From Myxococcaceae bacterium (GTDB lineage: Bacteria; Myxococcota; Myxococcia; Myxococcales; Myxococcaceae), in assembly GCA_016793095.1 (NCBI GenBank), contig JAEUJQ010000068.1:1-64000 (forward strand): a DNA stretch of 64,000 nt, written 5' to 3'. The position numbers were made by a program, and so were the translations under genes. Positions 2,177-54,384 of the stretch are shown here, one piece after another. The notes under the pieces are model-generated. The model was not told where the DNA came from. It did not search any database and saw nothing but the letters and a program-made list of their open reading frames with translations. How positions within the stretch are numbered: position 1 is the stretch's first letter; every line of letters starts with the position of its first letter.

Positions 2177-3640
2177 CTACCTCACCCGGGCCGGCGCTGC
2201 CGAGTGCAACGACGACGCCACCTCGGCGGTGAGTAAGGGCAACACCCCGCCGCCGCCAACGATGTTGACGATGTGAGAGATCGAGCCGCGGCACACGCCG
2301 CCCCAGGCTGGCTGGTCGGGCAGGCCGACGGACGCATAGGACGAGAAGTCGACGTAGAGGTCGGCCCACGATTGCTGCTGGCCGGCGCAGAGCAGGTGCC
2401 GCTCGGGGCGGATGTCGATCACCTCCTGCACCACGAAGCCGCCACCTGACACGTCCTCCACCGCGCGCTGGCAGAGCGTCTCCCAGTCGAGCGCCTCGCC
2501 GTACGCCGCCTTCACGCGCTCGGCGAACGAGGGCTCGCCCCGGGTGCGGCCCACGAAGACCGCGCGGCCCCCGTAGTCCCACGAGCGCTTGAGAACGTAG
2601 CGATCGGGGTTGGCGCGCACCTGCTCGAGCCGCTGGTCGCCCTTGAACAGCCGCGTCCACGGCACCGAGGTGCGAATGGCCTCGAGCTCGTCGTCCGAGA
2701 GCCCGGCGGCCTTCGCGATGGCCCGGTCCTCCACCGCCTCGGACAGGAGGCCGAACACGGCCTTCACCTCGACCTGTGACGCCGGCGGATTGAGCACCAC
2801 CGCGCGGGTCCCGTTCGGCTCGGCGAGCAGGGCCTTCACGAAGTCCGCGCCGGCGAGGTCGGGCTCCTCGAGGCGGCGGACGAAGAGGTGCCGGTAGACG
2901 AGATCGACGGGCTTGCCGTTGGCGAGCAGCCGGTCGGTGCCCGAGAGCTGGTCTGGATGCACGACCTCGGCCTCGACGCCGAGCTCGTTGAACCGCGCGC
3001 ACAGGGCCCGCTGCTCGGTGAGCTGGGCGTCGTTGCGGCGGCAGAGCAGGATCATGCGGGCAGGCCGCTGCCCCGGCCGCACCTTCGCGTAGCCAGCCAT
3101 CAGCGCGTCGAACAGGGCCCGGGCGTTGCTGCCGTTCTGGCGCTGCCAGGCGGAGATCTGCGCCTCGGTGGCGCCCCAGTGCCGGCCCACCACCTCGAGG
3201 AAGGTGTCGGCGGCGATGTCGCTGTACGCCTGCATGGCGGGAATGGTGGCGTTGAGCTCGAGGGCCTGCACCGAGTCGCGCACGAAGAAGTCGACGCGCG
3301 TGGTGACGAGCGTGTCGACGCGTCGGAAGGTGGCGTCGGCGAGGGTCTGTTCGAGCGGAGAGAGCCCGTTGAAGACGATCTCCCGGCGCAGGCCGTCGAG
3401 GACCGCGCGAGACATCTTGAGGCCGGCGGAGGCGAGCAGGGCGGCCAGGCGCTGCCGGCGGGCAAGCTCCTTCGCGTCGACGATGACGGGGGTCGCGGTG
3501 ATGGGGATCGGACGGATCGAGCCGTCCTCCTTCTTCGTCACGGCGAGCCCGCGCTCGGCGGCCAGCTTCGCGAGGGTCGGTCCGAAGGCGCTCGCGTCAC
3601 GCTCCAGCGCCACGCGGAGCTCAGGCTCGATCGTCATCAT
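2177..3640 (-). CDS. ATP-grasp-like protein, possibly circularly permuted
   Basis: A 487-residue protein. Residues about 200-260 look like a Rossmann-type pre-ATP-grasp domain (ARMILLCRRND...LVYRHLFVRR). The C-terminal third carries ATP-grasp-like features: RYVLKRSWDYGGRAVFVGR with a candidate ATP-binding Lys, and GGFVVQEVIDIRPERH. Similar arrangements occur in glutathionylspermidine-synthase-like and circularly permuted ATP-grasp ligases, so it may join an amine to a carboxylate, but the substrate is unknown. The reading frame is open upstream to 4183, but only the part from the ATG at 3640 looks like protein. It diverges from the gene at 3719 with 78 bp between them. Confidence 0.55.
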   Translation of the reverse strand: MMTIEPELRVALERDASAFGPTLAKLAAERGLAVTKKEDGSIRPIPITATPVIVDAKELARRQRLAALLASAGLKMSRAVLDGLRREIVFNGLSPLEQTLADATFRRVDTLVTTRVDFFVRDSVQALELNATIPAMQAYSDIAADTFLEVVGRHWGATEAQISAWQRQNGSNARALFDALMAGYAKVRPGQRPARMILLCRRNDAQLTEQRALCARFNELGVEAEVVHPDQLSGTDRLLANGKPVDLVYRHLFVRRLEEPDLAGADFVKALLAEPNGTRAVVLNPPASQVEVKAVFGLLSEAVEDRAIAKAAGLSDDELEAIRTSVPWTRLFKGDQRLEQVRANPDRYVLKRSWDYGGRAVFVGRTRGEPSFAERVKAAYGEALDWETLCQRAVEDVSGGGFVVQEVIDIRPERHLLCAGQQQSWADLYVDFSSYASVGLPDQPAWGGVCRGSISHIVNIVGGGGVLPLLTAEVASSLHSAAPARVR

Positions 3641-6651: not shown

Positions 6652-8288
6652 GCGAACCCCAGCCGCCGTCTCCGCCGCCGAACCCCTCGCCGCAGCCGCC
6701 CGCCCCGGGCGGAGGCGGGGGCAACCGCGGCGCCATCATCGCCATCATCGGCGTGGTGCTCGTGGTGGGCATCGTCGTGGCCGTCGTGGAGTCGCGCGGC
6801 AAGCAGCCCACCCCTCTGAAGGACGGCCCGATCCCCGGGCTGCCGCCGCCCGTGACGCAGCCCACCGGCGCCTTCGACACGCCGAACCGCCCGGAGCCCA
6901 CCTACGCAGCGCTCGAGGAGGCGCCCGCCCAGGACACGCCCGAGCTCTTCTGGCTCTCGGTGGCGAACCCCAGGCAGGTGCACCAGACGCTGCGCTCGAA
7001 CGCGTGGCTCGGCAAGGCGATGAAGGACCCCGTGGGGCAGGGCTTCGTGGCGGCCTGGGGCGGCTTCTTCGGCACCCGCGGCGAGGACATCGGCAAGGCC
7101 TTCTCGGGGGCGGTCGCCGATCTCGTGCTCGATCAGGTGCTCGGCACCCCGTACCGCATCGTCTGGTACGGCGGCGAAGGCGCGAAGGGCGCTCCGGCGG
7201 TGATCGTCCCGTCTCCGGGTGGCTCGGCGGTCACCGCGTTCGACACGCTCGTGCAGGTCGCGGCCTCGGGCGGCTTCGATCCGCCCTCGTGCGTGAAGTC
7301 GGCCGGGGCCGGCGCCGACGGCGGCGCCTCTGCGGAGTCGATCCACCGCATCGTGCTGGCCGACAAGATCGTCTTCGCCGCGAAGCTGGCGGATCGCATC
7401 GTGCTCGCGCCGCGTCCCCAGGCCGCGATGCTGGCCATGTGCCACGAGCTGTCGAAGGGAGAGCCGAAGGCGGGCGTCGCGGTGTCGCTGGGCTTCTCGC
7501 TCGGCGCCTCGGGGCGCGGCACCCAGAGCCTCGGCGCAGTGCTGGGCGTGGGCGACGTGGCCGAGCTGGACTTCGGCGTCGAGAGCGACGGCTTCGTGCC
7601 GAAGGGACTGGGCGCGACCCTCGACGGCCCGGGGCGGTTGGCAGCGGTCGAGCCCTCGCAGGACCTGCTCAAGGCGATCCCCGAGCGGAGCGGCGTGGTG
7701 CTCTTCCTCGCCGTGAAGCTCCCGAAGGAGCTGACCGCGACGGCCCTGCGCGACACGCTCGGCGCCGACGGAGAGGACTTCAAGAAGACCCGCAAGGAAT
7801 GGCCGGCCGGCGACCCGCGCCAGGTGGCGGTGGTGTGGAACCCGCGGGGCAATCGCAACACCGAGGTCGCGGTGCTCTGGGCCAACGTCGCGGACGAGCA
7901 GGCGCTCGCCGGGGCGATGACGAAGGGCAACGGGGCGCTCCAGGCGGGCAAGGCGTGCAGCGTGCTGGCCTACGCGTCGACGAAGGAGCTGATGGCCGAT
8001 CTGCAGGCCTCGTGCAGCGGCAAGAAGCCCTCGCTGATGCAGGCGGCGCAGCCGGTGGTGAAGGGCCTGACGCAGAACGCGTCGCTCGCGCTCACCGTCA
8101 ACCTGGGCCGCGTGCTCTCGCAGCTCACCATCGACGGCTGGCTGTCGGAGCACCCGACGCCGAACGCCACCACCGGGCCGCAGGAGATCGAGGCCGCCCG
8201 CAAGCTGCTCGAGGAGCTGCCCACGGTGGGCTTCCGCGCGACAGTGGGCGCCGACGGGAAGGTCGTCTCTGGAGGGTTCCGGTCATGA
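6648..8288 (+). CDS. yfaA: DUF2138 (YfaA-like) membrane-anchored periplasmic protein
   Basis: A 546-residue protein with a Pro-rich N-terminus (residues 1-22), one transmembrane segment (about 26-46, AIIAIIGVVLVVGIVVAVV) and a large extracytoplasmic part, so a type II anchored protein. The extracytoplasmic domain (PELFWLSVANPRQVHQTLRS onwards) corresponds to the DUF2138 family of E. coli YfaA. In P. aeruginosa the corresponding operon products form an inner-membrane complex with the macroglobulin MagD, so this protein is a plausible membrane scaffold. The ATG at 6648 overlaps the yfaT-like stop by 4 bp; the frame is open further upstream but inside yfaT. Confidence 0.8.
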   Translation: MSEPQPPSPPPNPSPQPPAPGGGGGNRGAIIAIIGVVLVVGIVVAVVESRGKQPTPLKDGPIPGLPPPVTQPTGAFDTPNRPEPTYAALEEAPAQDTPELFWLSVANPRQVHQTLRSNAWLGKAMKDPVGQGFVAAWGGFFGTRGEDIGKAFSGAVADLVLDQVLGTPYRIVWYGGEGAKGAPAVIVPSPGGSAVTAFDTLVQVAASGGFDPPSCVKSAGAGADGGASAESIHRIVLADKIVFAAKLADRIVLAPRPQAAMLAMCHELSKGEPKAGVAVSLGFSLGASGRGTQSLGAVLGVGDVAELDFGVESDGFVPKGLGATLDGPGRLAAVEPSQDLLKAIPERSGVVLFLAVKLPKELTATALRDTLGADGEDFKKTRKEWPAGDPRQVAVVWNPRGNRNTEVAVLWANVADEQALAGAMTKGNGALQAGKACSVLAYASTKELMADLQASCSGKKPSLMQAAQPVVKGLTQNASLALTVNLGRVLSQLTIDGWLSEHPTPNATTGPQEIEAARKLLEELPTVGFRATVGADGKVVSGGFRS

Positions 8289-11200
8289 AGACGCTGCGTC
8301 TGTTGATCGTGCTGCTGGTCGCCGCGCCCGCGTTCGCGAAGCCCATCTACGTGACGGTGCCGCGCAGCTTCGGCCCCAACGAGTCGCCCCGGCTCGAGGT
8401 GTCCTTCGCTGAGAAGGAGCCCGTCGAGCTGCGGGTGCTCAAGCCGAAGAACCTCGACGCGTTCTTGAAGGGGCAGCAGGCGCTGCGCCGCGCGTACGAT
8501 CCTCCGCCGACGCTGGCGAACCCCGGCCGCGCCCTGTCCCGTGGCATCAACGCGGTGGGGAGCCCCGTCGATCTGCTGCGCTTCTCGCTAGGCGGCGCGT
8601 TCCGCAAGACGGTGCTGCCGGCCCTCGCCGACGCGCCGGCGCCGATGACGGCGGACCCGGTGCAGCTCGATCAGGGCCCCGAGCGGCTCATCGGGGTGCC
8701 CGCGAACATGGAGCTCGTGCGCAGCCAGTGGCTCAACCTCGATCTCGGCGGCAACGATCGCGACTTCAACGTGCCCGGCTTCGAGCAGTGGAACTCGAGC
8801 TCGGGCTTCCAGGATCGCAGCGTGCTGCTCGATCCCCTCCCGGCCGGCGTCTACGTCGTGCAGATGGTGCAGGGCGCCATCGAGGGCCAGGTGGTGCTGG
8901 TCGTCACCGAGCTCACCGCCGTCGTGAAGCAGACCGACGCCGAGGTGCTGGTCCGCGTCGCCGGCCGCGATCAGCAGGCGAAGACGGGCGTCGCGGTGAA
9001 GGTGCTCGCCGGCAAGCAGGTCATCGAGGGCAAGACGAACGAGCACGGCGAGGTGCGCCTGTCGACCACGGAGCCGCGCCTGATCGTCACCGCGACGAAC
9101 GGCGCCGACACCGCGCTCATCGACACCGACTTCTTCTCGACGCTCGCGGTGGTGCCCGACGTCTTCCTCTACTCCGATCGCCCCATCTACAAGCCGGGCG
9201 ACACCGTGCGCTTCCGCGGCGTGCTGCGGCAGCCCGAGAGCGCGCTCGCGCGCCTCTTCAAGCCGAAGAAGCCCGAGGTCGAGGTCCAGTTGCTCTCGGA
9301 CGGCCCGGTGGTGAAGGGCAAGGCGAAGGTGGACGAGTTCGGCGCGTTCTCGGGGCAGCTGACGGTGCCCACCGGCCTGCCCACCGGCGTGCTGCGGCTC
9401 ACCGCGAAGGTGGACGGGCCCGATCACCAGTCCGAGGCGCGCGTGCAGGAGTACGTGAAGCCCACCTTCTTCATCGAGGTGCAGACGGACGAAGAGACCG
9501 TCACCCCGGGCGGCGCCATCAAGGCGAAGCTGCGCGCGCGGCGGTACGCGGGCGGCGCGCCGAAGGGCACGAAGTACCTCGTCTACCTGTACCGCACGCA
9601 GGTCGACTCGCCGGCCTGGGTCGACGACTCGGGCCTCGGCGGAAAGGGGTCGGCCGTCACCTACGGCACGCCGTCCACCACCGAGGGCACGCTCTCGGTG
9701 CCGCAGAAGCTCTATGCCTCGGCCGAGGGCTACGGCGACGTCTGGGAGTCGGCCGCCACCTTCGATGATCAGGGCGAGGCGCAGATCTCGGTGCCGGTGC
9801 CCGCGCTGCAGGCCGGCGACGAGCGCAAGCCCTGGCGCTACTCGGTGTCGGTGCGCGCGCGCGACGATCAGGGCACCTTCGCGAACGCCGCGAAGAGCTT
9901 GTTCCTCGCCGAGAGCGATCTGCTCGGGTCGGTGCTCGCCCGCCAGCGCGTCACCCGACCCGGCGACATCGCGCGCTTCTCGGTGCGCGCCACCACGCTG
10001 TCAGGCAAGCCCTACGGCGTGACGAAGGGCGAGGTGCAGTTCGTGCTGCTCGGCGCCGACGGCACCACCACCAACCTCACGAAGCAGGAGTTCTCGACCC
10101 AGGACGACGGCGTCGCGCGGCTCGAGGTGAAGGGCGACAAGCCGGGCGTCGTCGAGGCGCAGGTGACGCTGAAGGACAAGAAGGGCCTCTCGTGGACCGG
10201 CACCACCACCACCCTCGTGCTGGGCAGCGGCGGCGAGGCGGTGATGCAGGTGCCCACGCTGACGCTCGAGGCGCTCGGCGGCGTCATGGAGCCCGGCGAC
10301 ACCGCCGAGGTCGTCGGCCTGTTGCCCAACGGCTGGGGCGTGAAGGAGGCCAACGAGGGCAGCGTGTGGGTGACCCTCACCGGCGCCGGCATCTTCAAGA
10401 CCGAGCGCGTGCCGGTGAAGGGCCAGACGGTCGTCTACAAGTTCCCCATCGAGAAGCGCTTCGGCGGCGCCGTCTACGCCGCGCTCGCGTACCCCTCGGC
10501 GGCCGGCCGCTGGGAGGAGCGCATCGCCGGCTTCCGCATCGTGCCGAAGGAGCGCACGCTGTCGGTGCAGGTCAACGCAGAACGGCCCGAAGCGGCGCCG
10601 CTCACCGTCCAGACGCTCACGTTGCGCGTCACCGATCACCTCGGCCGGCCCGTGCAGGCGCAGGTCTCGGTGGGCGTCGTGGACAAGGCCGTCTACGCGC
10701 TGCAGAGCGAGTTCCGCCCCGGCATCGTCGAGTTCTTCTACCCGGTGGGCCGCGACAACGTGTCCACCTTCTCGTCGAGCGAGTTCCAGGGCTACGGCTA
10801 CGGCGAGCGCATCGCCCAGCTCCTCGCGAAGCTGCCGAAGCGCCAGTTCGCCGCGGTGAAGCCTCCCACGAAGCCCCAGAAGGAAGACGACACGGTCTAC
10901 TGGAACCCGGCGATCACCACCGACCGCGACGGGCGCGCGACGGTGACGTTCAAGCTGAACTCCATGCAGACGCTGTGGACGGTGACGGCGGTGGCGGTGG
11001 ATGCGTCGGGCCGCTTCGGCGAGGCGACGAGCGAGTTCGCGACCCGCGGCGCGCTCGTGGTGGCGGCGAACCTGCCCCAGTTCCTGCGGCAGGGTGACGT
11101 GGCGACGGGCTCCATCCGCGTGACGCCCGGGCAGAACGGGCCGGGGCAGGGCACGGTGACGCTCGACTACGCGGGCCAGGGCGCGGTGACGCTCGCCGCG

Positions 11201-44477: not shown

Positions 44478-44556
44478 GCCGTGGCTGCGATGCTCGCTTG
44501 ACGCTCTCGAGTCAGGCTGGCAGAAGGCCCGCGTCTCACTGAAGCACCCTGTCGTC

Positions 44557-44635
<79 letters not shown>

Positions 44636-44638
44636 TTG

Positions 44639-44682
44639 AAGGGCCTGATCTCCGAGGGGAAACCCAAGGCGGTCAGGCCCTT
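44639..44682 (+). terminator. Terminator downstream of tRNA-Pro, carried by the element's left end
   Basis: Arms AAGGGCCTGA (44639-44648) and TCAGGCCCTT (44673-44682) are followed by CGTCTTTCC. A similar hairpin with different bases follows the right repeat, so the element appears to supply a replacement tRNA terminator at its left end. Confidence 0.6.
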
Positions 44683-44745
44683 CGTCTTTCCGGCCTCCCC
44701 CTGCCCGCACAATGGGCGCACAAAGCGGTTGGGCTCGCGCTGAAC

Positions 44746-44913
44746 TTGCTGACTGTGAAGGCGGTCGCCGAGCGCCTCTCGGTGTGCACAGCGACCGTCT
44801 ACAAACTCTGCGACCAGGGGCGGTTGGCCTACGTCCGCGTGTCGAACGCGATCCGCATCGAGGCTGACGAACTGGAGCGCTTCATCGCGGGTCAGGGGAG
44901 GGCGGTTCCGTGA
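44746..44913 (+). CDS. Excisionase-family helix-turn-helix protein, at the left end of the element
   Basis: A 55-residue MerR/Xis-type winged helix: [20 protein letters not shown] then [26 protein letters not shown] at 44746 or GTG at 44755 could start it; neither has a clear ribosome site. The reading frame is open leftwards through the terminator and tRNA 3' half with no stop, which matters because in the circular element it would be continuous with the integrase gene. It is a paralogue of the protein at 52552. Its stop overlaps the rep start (GTGA). Confidence 0.6.
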
Positions 44914-45704
44914 TCGCCGGCTCCCATAGTTCCGTGAGGAGAGAAGAAGGATTCAAGCAGATCACTGGGGAACCAGACGGGTGGGGGTCGGAGATGAAGC
45001 TCTCTCTTCAGCTCCAGGATCCCCAGGACGCACGCGCGTGGGAGTTCAGCTACCTGAACCAGTTCGACCGGGCGCACTGGGTGACCCGCTGCTCCAACAG
45101 TATGGATACCCTCGGCGGGCGCACCTGCAAGATGCGGCAGTGCCCCGCCTGCTCGTTGCGGGCCTCGCGGGACCTTGCACACCGCATTCAGACGGTTGCA
45201 CGTCGCATGGAGCACAGGCTGTCGCTGATCATCTCCCTCCGCTCGACTGGTCTTTGGGACCTGCGGGAGACGCTTCGTTCCCTGAGGTCGTTCGTCACCG
45301 TCGTGCACCGCTGGAAGGGGCTGGCCGGGCTCACCGCAGTTGGCGCCATCGAACCGAAGCTCACAGCCGCCAAGCGGGCGTGGGTGCCACACGCCCACGT
45401 GGTCGTTGACGCCAAGGCGTTGGTGGTTGGCCCTCTCGCCGACCGCTATCACGACCTCACGAACGGTCTCGGTACGTTGATGCTCGCGGCTCCGCGACCA
45501 GACCTGTTCGAGTCCATCCCGATGATCGCCACCTACTTCTCGAAGCCCGAAAGTTGGTGCCCGTTTCCCGGCTCAATGCACCCGCAAATGTTCGGGATCT
45601 TCGCCGACGCGGTGAAGGGCGTTCAGCGGCTTGTCGAGTGGAACGGGGGCCGCCGCGGGCGCCGCAAGCGCCGGCACTCGGAGGTTGAGGCCCATGCAGC
45701 TTGA
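44910..45704 (+). CDS. Candidate HUH rolling-circle replication initiator
   Basis: A 264-residue protein. PHAHVVV gives an HUH motif (His161, His163), and ATYFSKP supplies a candidate catalytic Tyr209 in a YxxK context, as in Rep_1-type plasmid initiators. Upstream, CKMRQCPAC with further residues RASRDLAHRI (Cys73, Cys78, Cys81) resembles the zinc-binding patch preceding the HUH motif in such proteins. The C-terminus is very basic (GGRRGRRKRRH). It would nick one strand to begin replication of the excised circle. The GTG at 44910 has GGGGAGG upstream and overlaps the HTH stop. Family is inferred from motifs; overall similarity was not tested. Confidence 0.62.
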   Translation: MIAGSHSSVRREEGFKQITGEPDGWGSEMKLSLQLQDPQDARAWEFSYLNQFDRAHWVTRCSNSMDTLGGRTCKMRQCPACSLRASRDLAHRIQTVARRMEHRLSLIISLRSTGLWDLRETLRSLRSFVTVVHRWKGLAGLTAVGAIEPKLTAAKRAWVPHAHVVVDAKALVVGPLADRYHDLTNGLGTLMLAAPRPDLFESIPMIATYFSKPESWCPFPGSMHPQMFGIFADAVKGVQRLVEWNGGRRGRRKRRHSEVEAHAA

Positions 45705-46128: not shown

Positions 46129-46453
46129 ACGCGAAGTGTTGCGCCCAACGGCTCGTCGGAAGGCATCGGTCAAGCAGGAAGCCAAGAAGCTGGGGCGCCC
46201 TGTTACGCCCGGCTCGAAGGCCGTCGAGACCGAACTCTCCCATTGGCTTGCCCGGTCCGGCGTGAACCGAGGCGAGTTCGCGACGAAGCTCGGCATGGAG
46301 CGAACGAGCTTCGACCGCTACGCGCGCGGCGAGCGGGTTCCTGACGTTCGGCTGGCGTTCAGGATCGAAGACCTGACAGATGGCGCCGTGCCCGCTCGCA
46401 GTTGGGTGGCCGTCCTTGAGTTGCGTGAGACGCAATCGAGTGCTCGGGCTTGA
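46118..46453 (+). CDS. HTH regulator of the element, XRE-like
   Basis: A 111-residue basic protein. Residues about 35-75 (LSHWLARSGVNRGEFATKLGMERTSFDRYARGER) read as a lambda-repressor-type helix-turn-helix. The N-terminus is Lys/Arg-rich. ATG at 46118 was chosen; GTG at 46064 is an in-frame alternative. An operator-like palindrome covers this start, and a second copy lies immediately after the gene in the promoter of the serine recombinase, so the protein is the natural candidate for the repressor that binds both. Confidence 0.6.
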   Translation: MRTKREVLRPTARRKASVKQEAKKLGRPVTPGSKAVETELSHWLARSGVNRGEFATKLGMERTSFDRYARGERVPDVRLAFRIEDLTDGAVPARSWVAVLELRETQSSARA

Positions 46454-46478
46454 GGTTTAATCCGGTATGGATTAATAT
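46450..46478 (+). promoter_or_regulatory. Promoter of the serine recombinase with embedded operator copy 2
   Basis: TTGAGG (46450-46455), 17-bp spacer, TAATAT (46473-46478). The perfect inverted repeat TTAATCC-GGTAT-GGATTAA (46457-46475) fills the spacer and overlaps the -10, the typical position for repression by occlusion. Confidence 0.65.
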
Positions 46479-46506
46479 TGCTGCATCCAACGACAGAGGC
46501 GGCACC

Positions 46507-47157
46507 ATGATGGCGACCGGGTATCTCAGGGTTTCGAGCAGGGCCCAGGATCACGCGACCCAGCGCTCCGCGATTGAACGTGCCGCCGCCGCCCGTGGCG
46601 ACACGATCACCAACTGGTACGCGGAGAAGAAGTCAGGCAAGACCCTCGCCCGCCCCGAACTCGATCGCCTTCGCACCGACGTTCGCGGCGGTCGGCTCCA
46701 GGGCAGGCTCTATGTGTTCAAGCTGGATCGTCTGACCCGCTCGGGCATCCGCGACACGTTCGAGGTGATTGAGGAACTGAAGGATCACGGCGTCGAGCTG
46801 GTCTCGGCCGCTGATGGCTTTGACCTCAGTGGGCCAGTTGCCGAAGTGATTCTTGCCGTCATGGCGTGGGCCGCGAAGATGGAACTGGTGACCCGAGGGG
46901 AACGCGTTGCCGCTGCACGCGATCGAATTGAGGCAGCGGGCGGCCAGTGGGGAAGACCCAGCCGCCTGACCCGTGATGACCGCTCGAAGATCGTGGCGCT
47001 GCACACCGAGGGGCGCAGCATCCGAGCGATCGCGGTGGCACTGAAGATTCCACGGGCCACCGTCGGCAGGGCGCTGGCGGCGTCTCGAAAAGGTGGGTCG
47101 CCAACTGGCCCGCTGGCTCCTCTTGACGAACGCTGTCAGCAGGGGGCGGCCGGGTAG
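46507..47157 (+). CDS. Serine recombinase (resolvase/invertase family)
   Basis: A 216-residue resolvase-type enzyme. ATGYLRVSSRAQDHATQ places the nucleophilic Ser10 in the RVS motif; KLDRLTRSGIRDTFEVIEEL and GERVAAARDRIEAAGG follow as in the family, ending with an HTH_7-like DNA-binding region (GRSIRAIAVALKIPRATVGRAL). It could resolve multimers of the circle or invert DNA. ATG at 46507 (or 46510) has GAGG upstream. Its promoter carries the element's operator. Confidence 0.88.
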   Translation: MMATGYLRVSSRAQDHATQRSAIERAAAARGDTITNWYAEKKSGKTLARPELDRLRTDVRGGRLQGRLYVFKLDRLTRSGIRDTFEVIEELKDHGVELVSAADGFDLSGPVAEVILAVMAWAAKMELVTRGERVAAARDRIEAAGGQWGRPSRLTRDDRSKIVALHTEGRSIRAIAVALKIPRATVGRALAASRKGGSPTGPLAPLDERCQQGAAG

Positions 47158-48310: not shown

Positions 48311-48760
48311 GTGGCGAACCGCCTTTCATCAGCGCAGGTCGAGCAGGCATGGACGGCGTTCCAGGAGCGCCAGAGTGCTGACTACGTGTCGAGGAAGTGC
48401 GGGCTTCACTGGCGCACCGTCGAGCGCTACCGGCGGCTGGAGCGATGGGACGAGCGGCTCGCCGAGATCAGCGCCAAGGCGCAGGCGGCGGCCGACTACG
48501 ACCTGGCGGCGGCCCGTGGGCACTCCCTCCGGCTCCTGCGCGCCTACAAGAGCAAGGTTGAGCAGGCCCTGTTGAAGAAGGCGGTGTCGCCCGACGAGGT
48601 GAACGCGGCGGAGCTGGATCGGATCGTTCGGACGGAGATGCTGCTGCTCGGCGGGCCCGACAGCAGGACTGAGGTCGTGGCCAACGTGTCGGGGCGGTTC
48701 TCGTCGATGACCGACGAGGAGCTTGAGAGGTTCGCACGCGATGGAACCATCCCTGGCTGA
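48311..48760 (+). CDS. Probable terminase small subunit
   Basis: A 149-residue protein with an N-terminal helix-turn-helix (SADYVSRKCGLHWRTVERYRRLERW) and a long helical middle, the usual layout of TerS proteins that recognise the packaging site. Its stop lies within the first codons of the TerL-like gene (20-bp overlap), the standard terS-terL arrangement. Identification rests on context and layout more than on sequence motif. The GTG at 48311 is used. Confidence 0.58.
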   Translation: MANRLSSAQVEQAWTAFQERQSADYVSRKCGLHWRTVERYRRLERWDERLAEISAKAQAAADYDLAAARGHSLRLLRAYKSKVEQALLKKAVSPDEVNAAELDRIVRTEMLLLGGPDSRTEVVANVSGRFSSMTDEELERFARDGTIPG

Positions 48761-50258
48761 GCGCGCAGCCGCGCGACACGAGCTGATCCTGAGGCGCGCA
48801 CGGTCGGACTTCCTCTCGTTCGCCGAGTACGTGTTCGCGTTCAAGCCTGCCCCTCATCATCGGGAATGGGCGGCGGTCGTCGAACGGCCGCGTGTGGCGG
48901 TCGTGTGCGGCCCGGAGATGGGCAAGACCTCGCTCCTCGCGATAGCCCTTCCGCTGTGGCGCCTCGGGAGAAATCCGAACCTTCGGATCGCGATCATCAG
49001 CGAGACCGCGACCCAGGGCGCTCGGCCGCTCGCCGCCATCCGCCAGGCGATCGCGCAGAACCAGCGGCTCCAAGAGGTCTTCCCTCATCTTCGCCCCGCT
49101 GGTGGCGCTCGCGAGAAGTGGAGCGACACGGAGATCCTGGTCGAGCGCACCGACACCCTGAAGGAGCCGAGCATCATTGCGCTCGGCGTTGGAGGTCCGC
49201 TCCTTGGCGTTCGCCTGGAGTTGGCCATCCTCGACGACTGCGTGAGCTTTGAGTCCGCGTGGACCGCGGCGCAGCGAGCAAAGACGCTCGCCTGGTTTCG
49301 GTCGACCTTGATCGGCCGCATCGTCTCGACGGGCCAAGTCGTTGCTCTCGGCAATCCGTGGCACCGAGAGGACCTGCTCGGGCACCTCCAGCAGTCGGGC
49401 GAGTATCACGTCATTCGCACAGCGGCCGAGCTGCCCGACGGGTCGCCCACCTGGCCCGAGGTGTGGCCGCGCGAGCGCCTCGAACAGCGGCGGCGCGAAC
49501 TTGGCCTGGTCGAGTACCGGCGTCAGATGCTGCTGGAGCCCCCGGCCGACGAGGGCTCGCGCTTTTCTGCCGAATGGTTCGAGGCGGCGTTCCGAGTCGC
49601 CTCGGCAGAAGGGCTCGCGCTCGTCGACAGCTTCACCGGCCCCGGAGTGGCGTTCAGCGGCGTCGATCTTGGCGTCGGCCAGGAGGCGCGGCACGACGAA
49701 TCCGTGATCTTCACATTGGCGAAGCTCCCCGGTGGCCGACGACGGGTTCTCAACATCGAGCGTGGTCGGTGGCAGGCACCGGAGCTGATCTCGCGGTTGA
49801 TGTCGACGCAGCAGCGCTTTCGATCTCGCCTGCGCGTTGAGTCGAACGGCGCACAGGCGTTCATCACCCAGCTGCTCCGGTCGAAGGGTGTGAGCGTCGA
49901 GGGCCACGTGACCACCGCGACCGCAAAGAGCGACCCTCACTTCGGGATCGAGTCGCTGGCCGCCGAGCTTGAGCAGGGTCGTTGGTTGATTCCCGATGCC
50001 CCTGCGACACGTCGTTGGGCTCAAGAGTGCTTGAGCTACTCGCCCAGCGAGCACACGCCCGACGGCCTCATGGCTTCGTGGATGGCGCGGGAGGCGGCAC
50101 GTGAAGGCGAGTCGTTCGTGCCGCTGCTTCCGCTGCCGAGCGACGGGCGGTCGACGCTCGACCGGTACCGGCGGGAGGGCATTTTCGTGGCAAGGCCGGG
50201 GGCGTTTCCCGATAGCTCCGACGAGGAGCTGATGCGTGCTCAGCCCCGCCGGTTGTAG
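48741..50258 (+). CDS. Phage terminase large subunit
   Basis: A 505-residue DNA-packaging motor and nuclease. ATPase part: deviant Walker A CGPEMGKT (Gly57-Thr63) and Walker B LAILDD (Asp165, Asp166), with SETATQG-like and TGQVVALGNPWH coupling motifs. Nuclease part: FSGVDLGVG (Asp309) with DESVI, then RVESNGAQAF and HTPDGLMASWMAREA as the later acidic motifs of the RNase H-like fold. Both halves look intact, so this is not a remnant. GAGAGG precedes the ATG. No portal or capsid gene follows; the next gene is convergent. Confidence 0.85.
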   Translation: MEPSLAERAAARHELILRRARSDFLSFAEYVFAFKPAPHHREWAAVVERPRVAVVCGPEMGKTSLLAIALPLWRLGRNPNLRIAIISETATQGARPLAAIRQAIAQNQRLQEVFPHLRPAGGAREKWSDTEILVERTDTLKEPSIIALGVGGPLLGVRLELAILDDCVSFESAWTAAQRAKTLAWFRSTLIGRIVSTGQVVALGNPWHREDLLGHLQQSGEYHVIRTAAELPDGSPTWPEVWPRERLEQRRRELGLVEYRRQMLLEPPADEGSRFSAEWFEAAFRVASAEGLALVDSFTGPGVAFSGVDLGVGQEARHDESVIFTLAKLPGGRRRVLNIERGRWQAPELISRLMSTQQRFRSRLRVESNGAQAFITQLLRSKGVSVEGHVTTATAKSDPHFGIESLAAELEQGRWLIPDAPATRRWAQECLSYSPSEHTPDGLMASWMAREAAREGESFVPLLPLPSDGRSTLDRYRREGIFVARPGAFPDSSDEELMRAQPRRL

Positions 50259-52294: not shown

Positions 52295-52555
52295 ATGCCC
52301 CGCACTCAGCAAGACAGGCTCCAGGTGCCTGCCGCCACCCGATTCTCGGACGCTGCCATCACGTATTGGGTGGCTGTCTCCGACGTTGCGCGCGCACTTG
52401 GTTGTGGTCGAACCACTGCCTACGCACATCTTCGGCGCGCAGCCGGCCGACGCCCCGGTGACCGCGGCCTCCTTCGTGTCCCCGCGCCGATCTGGGAACG
52501 ATACGCAGCCGAGCACCTCGGGCCTCGTCCTGCCAGCAGCGCGGAGGGCGCATGA
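52295..52555 (+). CDS. Small HTH DNA-binding protein
   Basis: An 86-residue protein; VAVSDVARALGCGRTTAYAHLRRAAGRR is a helix-turn-helix, followed by a wing-like GLLRVPAPIWERYAAEHL. GAGGA precedes the ATG at 8 nt. It is translationally coupled to the excisionase-like gene (ATGA overlap at 52552) and so to the integrase. It may bind the palindrome just upstream of its start. Confidence 0.65.
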   Translation: MPRTQQDRLQVPAATRFSDAAITYWVAVSDVARALGCGRTTAYAHLRRAAGRRPGDRGLLRVPAPIWERYAAEHLGPRPASSAEGA

Positions 52556-52800
52556 AGCCAGAACTTCCGAAGAACGACGAGCCGCGCTGGACCGTGAAGA
52601 TCGTCGCGGCCTTCCTGAACTGCTCCCCGTCGAAGGTCTACAAGGCGTCCGAAGCAGGGACGTTGCCCTGTGTTCGCCTCGACGGCATGCTTCGATTCAA
52701 CCCCGATGAGATTCGCGCATACGCACGTGGCGAGCTGAAGCCGCGTCCGCGCGTGCGTTTAGTGCACCTCGACGTTGAGAAGCCGGTGGACCGTGGCTGA
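52552..52800 (+). CDS. Excisionase-like HTH protein
   Basis: An 82-residue protein of the excisionase DNA-binding family: WTVKIVAAFLNCSPSKVYKA and GTLPCVRLDGMLRFNPDEIRAYARG. It is a paralogue of the left-end HTH protein (shared pattern TVK-VA-L-VYK-G-L-VR-R-DE). Its place directly before int, with overlapping stop and start, suits a recombination directionality factor, though such proteins can also be transcriptional regulators. Confidence 0.72.
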   Translation: MKPELPKNDEPRWTVKIVAAFLNCSPSKVYKASEAGTLPCVRLDGMLRFNPDEIRAYARGELKPRPRVRLVHLDVEKPVDRG

Positions 52801-54253
52801 GCCCTTCAAGCGAGACGGAGTGTGGATGCTCGCGTTCAAGGACGGCGCCGGGCAGTGGCGCCAGCAGCGCACGAAGGCTGCGACGAAGGCCGAAGCTCGG
52901 GTGATGCTGCGGGACATCGAGCGGCGGATGGAGCGCATTCGGAATGGTCTGGAGCAACTCCCGGACCCCGAGTTGATGACCTTCGGCCAGCTTCTCGATT
53001 GGTGGAAGAGCGAGTACGGCGAACGGCTGAAGTCGCCAACCGTCCTGCTGATGGCAGAGAAGCACCTGCGCGGTGACCTGGGGGGCCTCACACTCCAGCA
53101 AGTGACTCCGAGCGCGATTGAGGGCCTGCTGAAGGCTCGTGAATCGACGCTGAAGCCCTCGACCCTCAACCACCTGCGAGCGCTGCTACACCGAATCTTC
53201 CGCACCGCGCTGCTCCGTGGTCGATGGCATGGAGCGAACCCCGCGTCGACCGTCGTCCGACGAAAGGTACCCAAGCGCCTGCCGACGTTCCTGAAGTACG
53301 ACGAGGTGATCGCCGTTCTGCCGGCGCTCCCCGAGAAGTGGGTCGCGTTCTTCGCGACGGCTGTCTATCTGGGCCTGCGCCGCGGCGAGCTGATTGCGCT
53401 CCGCAAGGGCGACGTGGATCTCCCAAGCCGAACGATCGCGGTTCTCCGAAGCGGAGAAGGCGACACGACGAAGGGTGGCCACGCGGACCTGCTTCCGATC
53501 CCCGACGCGCTCATGCCGTACTTGTCGAGTGCGTTCCGCTCGTCGCCGAGTGAGTTCGTCTTCCCACGGGAAGATGGATCGATGCTTCCCCTCGACGTGG
53601 CAGTAGACAAGATCTTGCGGCGCACGCTGGGAAGGGTGGGCATCGTCGACGGCTATGAACGTCGTTGTCGTCGCCGCGGTTGCGGGTTCACCGAGCCACG
53701 TGCAGACACCGCCGAGGGCCGGTGCCCTCGCTGCGACATGAAGCTGTGGTTGAAGTCGACCCCCCGACATGTTCGGTTCCATGACCTCCGACACACGACC
53801 GCGACGCTCCTTCTGAAGCAGGGCGTGCCGCTGCCGTTCGTGCAACGCATCCTTCGGCACCGAGACCCGGCGCTCACGACCGAGATCTACGGGCACCTTG
53901 AACTGACCGACCTACGCGCCGCACTCAACGTGCTCGATTTCAGGACCGAGGAGGAGCGCATCAATGCCGCGGAGGCGATCGGTGACGAACACCGTCGCGT
54001 GGCGGGGGACGATCGCACTTCGGTTGTCGCTGCGGCCGACGAGGAGCGCGCACAACCGGCGCACAAGAATTTCTGCCAGCCGATGGGGCACGGGCGAGCG
54101 CATCCAACCGCGAGGATGACTCAGACTGGCGGATCTCCAAGGGTTGCGAATCGGAGCTACGCCCTGCCAACGCGTGGGGAACATGGTTCGACCGTTGGGG
54201 TGCAAGTGGTCGCTGGTTCAAATCCAGTCGCCCCGACCATTGGAAGGCCCTGA
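52793..54253 (+). CDS. int: Tyrosine integrase with inserted zinc ribbon; reading frame crosses the attachment site
   Basis: A 486-residue site-specific recombinase. The N-terminal arm-binding and SAM-like core-binding domains (TFGQLLDWWKSEYGERLKSP) precede the catalytic domain with Arg196 (GLRRGEL), His330 and Arg333 (HDLRHTTAT), RHRDP and the nucleophile Tyr366 (TTEIYGHL). Between the first Arg and the HxxR box lies CRRRGC and CPRC (Cys292, 297, 311, 314), a four-Cys zinc ribbon. The last 23 codons run through the right tRNA repeat ([14 protein letters not shown]) and stop in chromosomal DNA at 54251, so the C-terminus depends on whether the element is integrated. GTG at 52793. Confidence 0.92.
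   Translation: MAEPFKRDGVWMLAFKDGAGQWRQQRTKAATKAEARVMLRDIERRMERIRNGLEQLPDPELMTFGQLLDWWKSEYGERLKSPTVLLMAEKHLRGDLGGLTLQQVTPSAIEGLLKARESTLKPSTLNHLRALLHRIFRTALLRGRWHGANPASTVVRRKVPKRLPTFLKYDEVIAVLPALPEKWVAFFATAVYLGLRRGELIALRKGDVDLPSRTIAVLRSGEGDTTKGGHADLLPIPDALMPYLSSAFRSSPSEFVFPREDGSMLPLDVAVDKILRRTLGRVGIVDGYERRCRRRGCGFTEPRADTAEGRCPRCDMKLWLKSTPRHVRFHDLRHTTATLLLKQGVPLPFVQRILRHRDPALTTEIYGHLELTDLRAALNVLDFRTEEERINAAEAIGDEHRRVAGDDRTSVVAAADEERAQPAHKNFCQPMGHGRAHPTARMTQTGGSPRVANRSYALPTRGEHGSTVGVQVVAGSNPVAPTIGRP
54195..54241 (+). repeat. Right attachment site (tRNA-Pro 3' half copy)
   Basis: Matches 44591-44637 at 45 of 47 positions, starting at the anticodon loop. The two differences are the two partners of one T-stem base pair. 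There is no 5' half, so this is not a second tRNA gene. It lies inside the end of the integrase reading frame. Confidence 0.9.
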
Positions 54254-54277
54254 TTCCCGCAACGGAGTCAGGGCCTT
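54244..54277 (+). terminator. Chromosomal terminator originally serving tRNA-Pro
   Basis: Arms AAGGCCCTGA (54244-54253) and TCAGGGCCTT (54268-54277) followed by CGTCTTTCC. In the integrated state it would end transcription of int; before integration it followed tRNA-Pro. Confidence 0.65.
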
Positions 54278-54384
54278 CGTCTTTCCGGCCCTGGGGCGAA
54301 GAGACCGGCGTGACGCCCGCGGGTCGTTCACCACCTGCACCGTGACGACGACCTGCCCCGGGCGTTGAGATACGGTGCCCGCCC

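Follow-up and report, generated by a model that had tools for sequence, protein, structure and literature searches.

The tyrosine recombinase gene (int) of a 9.6-kb element inserted in a tRNA-Pro(GGG) gene spans the element's own attachment site. Joining the two tRNA-Pro repeats, as in the circle, yields a frame of 574 codons, versus 486 in the chromosome. We consider it likely that the circle encodes a long integrase (Int) carrying an Xis-like HTH domain, that integration removes the codons of this domain, and that the two forms differ in role. This proposal draws on the common frame, the exchange of C-termini, the putative arm sites, the family-wide conservation of this arrangement and the purifying selection acting on the HTH, all read from sequence.

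The int gene and the attachment site

The following features were located in the 64-kb stretch of DNA analyzed here (the window).

44559..44635, + strand: intact tRNA-Pro(GGG), called by ARAGORN; 5' part from the host, 3' half from the anticodon loop onward carried by the element
44591..44645, + strand: left att copy (HTH side), a direct repeat 93% identical to the right copy
44638..44683, + strand: element-borne tRNA terminator hairpin (fold −37.1 kcal/mol, z −4.9), unlike the terminators of six sister genomes
44638..44913, + strand: open frame predicted to encode the C-terminal tail of the long, circle-borne Int; excisionase-type HTH_17 at 44743-44910
44705..44723, + strand: putative P'-arm site GCACAA n5 GCACAA (GCACAA at 44707 and 44718), inside the fused frame
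44910..45704, + strand: rep, candidate HUH-like rolling-circle initiator (Rep_1 2.3e-4, below the Pfam cut-off; HAHVVVD and YFSK motifs)
52552..52800, + strand: separate HTH_17 gene overlapping the int start (Pfam HTH_17 2.4e-8), in the position of Mx8 uoi
52793..54253, + strand: int, tyrosine recombinase (Phage_integrase 3.1e-18); GTG start at 52793, TGA at 54251-54253, 486 codons when integrated
54048..54066, + strand: putative P-arm site GCACAA n5 GCACAA (GCACAA at 54050 and 54061), inside int
54195..54249, + strand: right att copy (int side), direct repeat; 3' tRNA half from the host
54243..54278, + strand: host tRNA-Pro terminator (fold −31.1 kcal/mol, z −4.6), matching sister genomes

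The element has the makeup of a tRNA island: the intact tRNA lies at one end and a cognate 3' fragment (54195-54237) at the other, int is inside, and relatives have an empty site, gene order being the same up to tRNA-Pro and its terminator in six sister genomes, at loci in which asd is not reached. Identity of the att copies begins exactly at the anticodon loop TTGGGGT (44591-44597; right copy, 54195-54201), the probable region of strand exchange, and the T-stems of the two tRNA copies show a compensatory difference between the left and right repeats. Because the right-end type of terminator sits behind the same tRNA-Pro in the six sister genomes, the left 3' tRNA half and the terminator at 44638-44683 came in with the element, and their right-hand counterparts belong to the host.

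The last 18 codons of int derive from the host tRNA and the host terminator, with the stop codon in the 5' arm of the latter, and the catalytic residues of Int are all encoded upstream of att. The first-pass annotation of this DNA had described int as reading through the right repeat and stopping in chromosomal DNA, with the two frame lengths given above, and its numbers proved exact to the base. It had also placed an excisionase-type HTH in the left frame, with a stop codon overlapping the start of rep. Both points are borne out: the domain matches HTH_17 (Pfam 1.5e-12), PHROG excisionase families and the family tail profile, and the TGA at 44911-44913 overlaps the GTG of rep at 44910. The tail HTH shows the HTH_17/Xis-type fold near int that marks the excisionase (RDF) family. 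The best solved structure for the tail-HTH profile is Gp37 (4j2n, E 1.8e-6), which we take to be a mycobacteriophage Xis, and an AlphaFold model of the HTH alone is of low confidence (pLDDT 69). The hairpin terminator within the junction, raised earlier as a caveat, is real and element-owned; circularization would place it between int and the HTH, within the open frame.

The tandem motif GCACAA-n5-GCACAA occurs just twice in the window, once on each flank of the core, and the complete predicted attP (core plus both putative arm sites) is wholly within the fused int-HTH frame. Many relatives carry pairs of short direct repeats, with a spacing of ~11 bp, on both arms, ~90 bp ahead of the core and ~160 bp beyond it. 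Their sequence differs by subgroup (e.g., TTGCTGCTAG, TTTGGTGCCA and CTTGGTATCC), and they are likely arm-type Int sites encoded as protein. The int gene of the window reads tRNA-Pro in the sense direction, whereas the relatives in which a tRNA was found use the anticodon-loop core in the opposite orientation, among them its sister L116 and further elements in the same tRNA-Pro(GGG). Apart from the window, sense reading was seen only in the degenerate L063.

In most relatives an HTH_17 ORF lies in or shortly upstream of the int start. The corresponding gene in the window, at 52552..52800, is likely a stand-alone excisionase, and we think it a better candidate for the working excisionase than the fused HTH. 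Besides the tyrosine integrase, the element encodes a serine resolvase (46450-47157; Resolvase 5.7e-30) and a terminase large subunit (48311-50258; PHROG 38, 4.5e-81) preceded by a small-subunit-like ORF. No capsid or tail gene was recognized within the element, a possible phage satellite equipped with its own packaging enzyme.

Phase conservation and selection among relatives

The earlier caution that stop-free frames are common at high GC is fair for the window alone, where a random 43-codon stretch of the element is stop-free ~50% of the time, which with the factor of 1/3 for phase gives a chance of ~1/6. The int-HTH frame gains its significance from relatives, because they conserve the phase. 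Relatives of Int were collected with their surroundings, tail HTHs were located with a profile that ignores phase, and att copies were matched by DNA identity and then joined. The int and HTH frames proved to be in phase in 31 of the 33 Myxococcota elements with both ends and a reconstructed circle (binomial 4e-13). Clustering of int at 70% identity left 19 of 20 clusters in phase (1e-8), and clustering at 60% left 14 of 15 (2e-6). Where the int gene is intact, the phase is always kept (26/26), and both out-of-phase integrated elements have a truncated int. The stretch from core to HTH is open in the int frame in 29/33 cases, versus 22/66 for the other two frames. The targets comprise tRNA-Pro, Met, Arg, Gly, Asp and Val; different targets have the tRNA strand read in different frames, all three being used, and the linkers differ in length among relatives, yet the int-HTH phase is kept. 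Among 147 remote integrases examined as a control, four int frames overlap a tRNA and none has a tail HTH. On these counts, an open frame arising by chance at 65% GC is rejected, and we give it a negligible probability.

A contig search with a single Int query returned no matches; with an alignment query, close Int relatives were found only in Myxococcota and related MAGs. Plasmid records contained no match to the fused tail, and phage records gave weak matches, to stand-alone excisionases only. Viral sequences contained no match to Mx9 Int or to the L240 fusion, and the alignment query detected one clear Int-HTH contig among them, L165. The fusion is present as one ORF in this contig, in contig L240 (without a tRNA) and at the end of contig L126. 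It is likewise annotated as a single 548-residue protein in phage Mx9, where HTH_17 occupies residues 489-537 (3.5e-11), beyond an exact 44-bp piece of tRNA-Gly. L240, L126, L099 and L063 were called unintegrated from the absence of an intact tRNA and are not proven circles; a check for circularity found no terminal overlap in these four contigs. The status of L099 is less secure, as ARAGORN calls one sense tRNA in it (3411-3486). The phase in intact int genes, together with the single ORF in Mx9 and in unintegrated contigs, supports the first-pass proposal of a state switch that makes a different recombinase.

A frame broken across attP in related elements had been named in advance as evidence against such a switch. 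Broken frames were found only in elements with a truncated int (among them L062, with one stop) and in a few exceptions. These are a stop at the junction behind a full-length int (X046), a frameshift inside the HTH behind a full-length int (X038), three contigs of unclear history in which int, att and HTH are adjacent but out of phase (L099, L140 and L063), and one clade, adjoining the int of the window, in which int ends just after the catalytic tyrosine, before att (L039-L042). The L140 int equals that of L141 up to the core and diverges beyond it, as at the junction of neighboring elements. In L039-L042, judging from the gene structure, the tail fusion was lost or never gained and is dispensable.

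HTH_17 proteins are usually stand-alone excisionases, and the HTH might be a small gene in its own right, encoding another excisionase or a regulator and translated from its own start or by translational coupling, whose shared frame with int is incidental. An ATG does stand at the HTH start in the subgroup L043-L048, L062 (L043, L044, L045, L047, L048 and L062), where separate translation of the HTH is possible. Across the relatives, however, no conserved start codon or Shine-Dalgarno sequence was found at the HTH: most lack a Shine-Dalgarno sequence, and the interval −14 to +5 around the HTH is devoid of in-frame start codons in L106 and L115. Given the conserved phase and the annotation of the Mx9 fusion as one ORF as well, we regard an independent gene as improbable. 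The fusion could also be a by-product of compaction, with attP lying within the tail of int because of demands on the DNA and the HTH tail contributing nothing to Int. The linker accords with this idea, encoding the arm sites and being under little amino-acid constraint (dN/dS ~0.25-1.3 between close relatives, in which linker indels are whole codons only). The HTH does not: with a dN/dS of ~0.05-0.2 in the same comparisons, it is by this measure under strong purifying selection as a protein, much more constrained than the attP-coding linker, and it stays in phase with int despite the varied linker lengths. Compaction without a role for the tail is thus, in our judgment, distinctly improbable.

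Proposed roles of the fused domain and the downstream gene

We return to the proposal that the element encodes two forms of Int. In the free circle, the long form would begin with the tyrosine recombinase, continue through a linker encoded by attP (core and both arm sites) and end in an Xis-like winged HTH. When strands are exchanged in the anticodon loop of the tRNA gene, int would lose its HTH codons and receive a short end encoded by the host, and the lost codons, which lack a conserved start, would come to lie at the opposite end of the element. Both forms of Int are presumably made and would differ in activity. The long form would most likely serve the circle, binding attP and either favoring integration or repressing int, and the short form, with the separate Xis encoded just before int, would most likely serve excision. 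The most likely role of the fused HTH is in recombination direction or autoregulation, and we think that it would act only in the circle. Against fusion in the window, the element's own terminator should lower the fused transcript. The switch as such can do without the domain, since Mx8 Int shows no match to an HTH. A more specific version, in which the HTH is a detachable directionality factor that recombination removes on integration and returns on excision, and which here also controls the replication gene, is offered tentatively, as a possibility about which we are somewhat doubtful. If the detachable-domain reading is true, the form of the enzyme is tied strictly to the state of the DNA.

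The first-pass annotation had proposed in addition that excision puts rep under the int promoter, so that replication occurs only in the circle. The overlap of the HTH stop with the rep start points in this direction, as do similar overlaps of a Replic_Relax gene in L057 and of orf2 in Mx9. Tn916 provides a precedent, as its replication genes sit behind an insulating terminator and are transcribed in a circle-dependent manner (PMC11658703). Because the frame is open through the hairpin, ribosomes translating it in the circle could also keep the terminator from acting. Against this, int and rep are separated by a terminator of −37 kcal/mol, and rep is unique to the window element, being absent from the 95 other genomes of the family searched. 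In most relatives the gene after the HTH is unrelated or absent (Replic_Relax in L057, AbiEii in L121, an antitoxin in L101, DUF433 in L116, HNH in Mx9, or none). We consider this full model unlikely, and the claim that excision turns on replication is unsupported as a general principle. A scan of 44500-45100 for a sigma-70-like promoter gave no match, a result that says little about myxobacterial promoters.

The cargo right behind the HTH in L121, L123, L101 and L116 consists of AbiEii, Fic-like, addiction-module antitoxin and DUF433 genes, some of which overlap the HTH stop, and these elements are possible defense islands. In L121, the int frame (6951-8654) continues across tRNA-Asp and into the HTH belonging to a neighboring element, the second in the same tRNA; tandem insertion thus produces an Int-HTH frame in the chromosome too.

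Relation to known systems

Separate proteins usually determine the direction of recombination. In the family described here, a DNA rearrangement would rewrite the recombinase itself by adding or removing a DNA-binding domain, in a pattern kept over many Myxococcota elements with different tRNA targets. The family lends itself to testing, by comparison and by genetics, how recombination direction is encoded, and its integrated copies are annotated without a domain that the free form would have.

The closest phage Int (35%) is that of Mx9 (AY247757; Julien 2003), which carries a tRNA-Gly piece between the catalytic domain and the tail and a C-terminal HTH_17 in one ORF. It differs from the window in belonging to a 53-kb phage, in having the 5' half of the tRNA rather than the 3' half on the HTH side, and in being followed by an HNH endonuclease gene. 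IntP of Mx8 resembles the window in that attP lies inside int, the C-terminus is replaced on integration and an HTH_17 gene, uoi, overlaps the int start, but its tail has no HTH_17 match. Integration of Mx8 alters the specificity of the enzyme, and the prophage form is still active (PMC6070905); the case is also noted in Islander (PMC4383910). At the sequence level, the window has the features of the Mx8/Mx9 kind, namely an attP core in the int frame and two C-termini (486 versus 574 codons) on an intact catalytic domain, and shares with Mx9 the C-terminal HTH_17 of the free form.

The mycobacteriophage BPs shows an integration-dependent repressor with attP in the gene and two state-specific C-termini, as here (PMC4557955), but the gene is a repressor and the tail that is lost is a degradation tag. 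In Tn916, similarly to the window, a terminator at the element end shields rolling-circle replication genes when integrated (PMC11658703); the element differs in having an RNA antiterminator and conjugation genes and no protein fusion. Archaeal suicidal (SSV-type) integrases also have att inside int, so that integration alters the gene (PMC8371274). In these, integration separates the catalytic part from the rest and leaves the enzyme inactive, whereas the catalytic domain in the window stays whole; membership in the SSV type was rejected because all catalytic residues lie upstream of att.

Exchange of the C-terminus on integration is a principle already known for phages Mx8 and Mx9. A family-wide, phase-conserved and detachable excisionase-like domain in small tRNA islands appears to be undescribed, the original 2003 account of Mx9 aside. 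Integrases that disrupt their own gene have been reviewed as exclusively archaeal (PMC8371274), and the bacterial family described here stands beside them as a related, non-destructive case.
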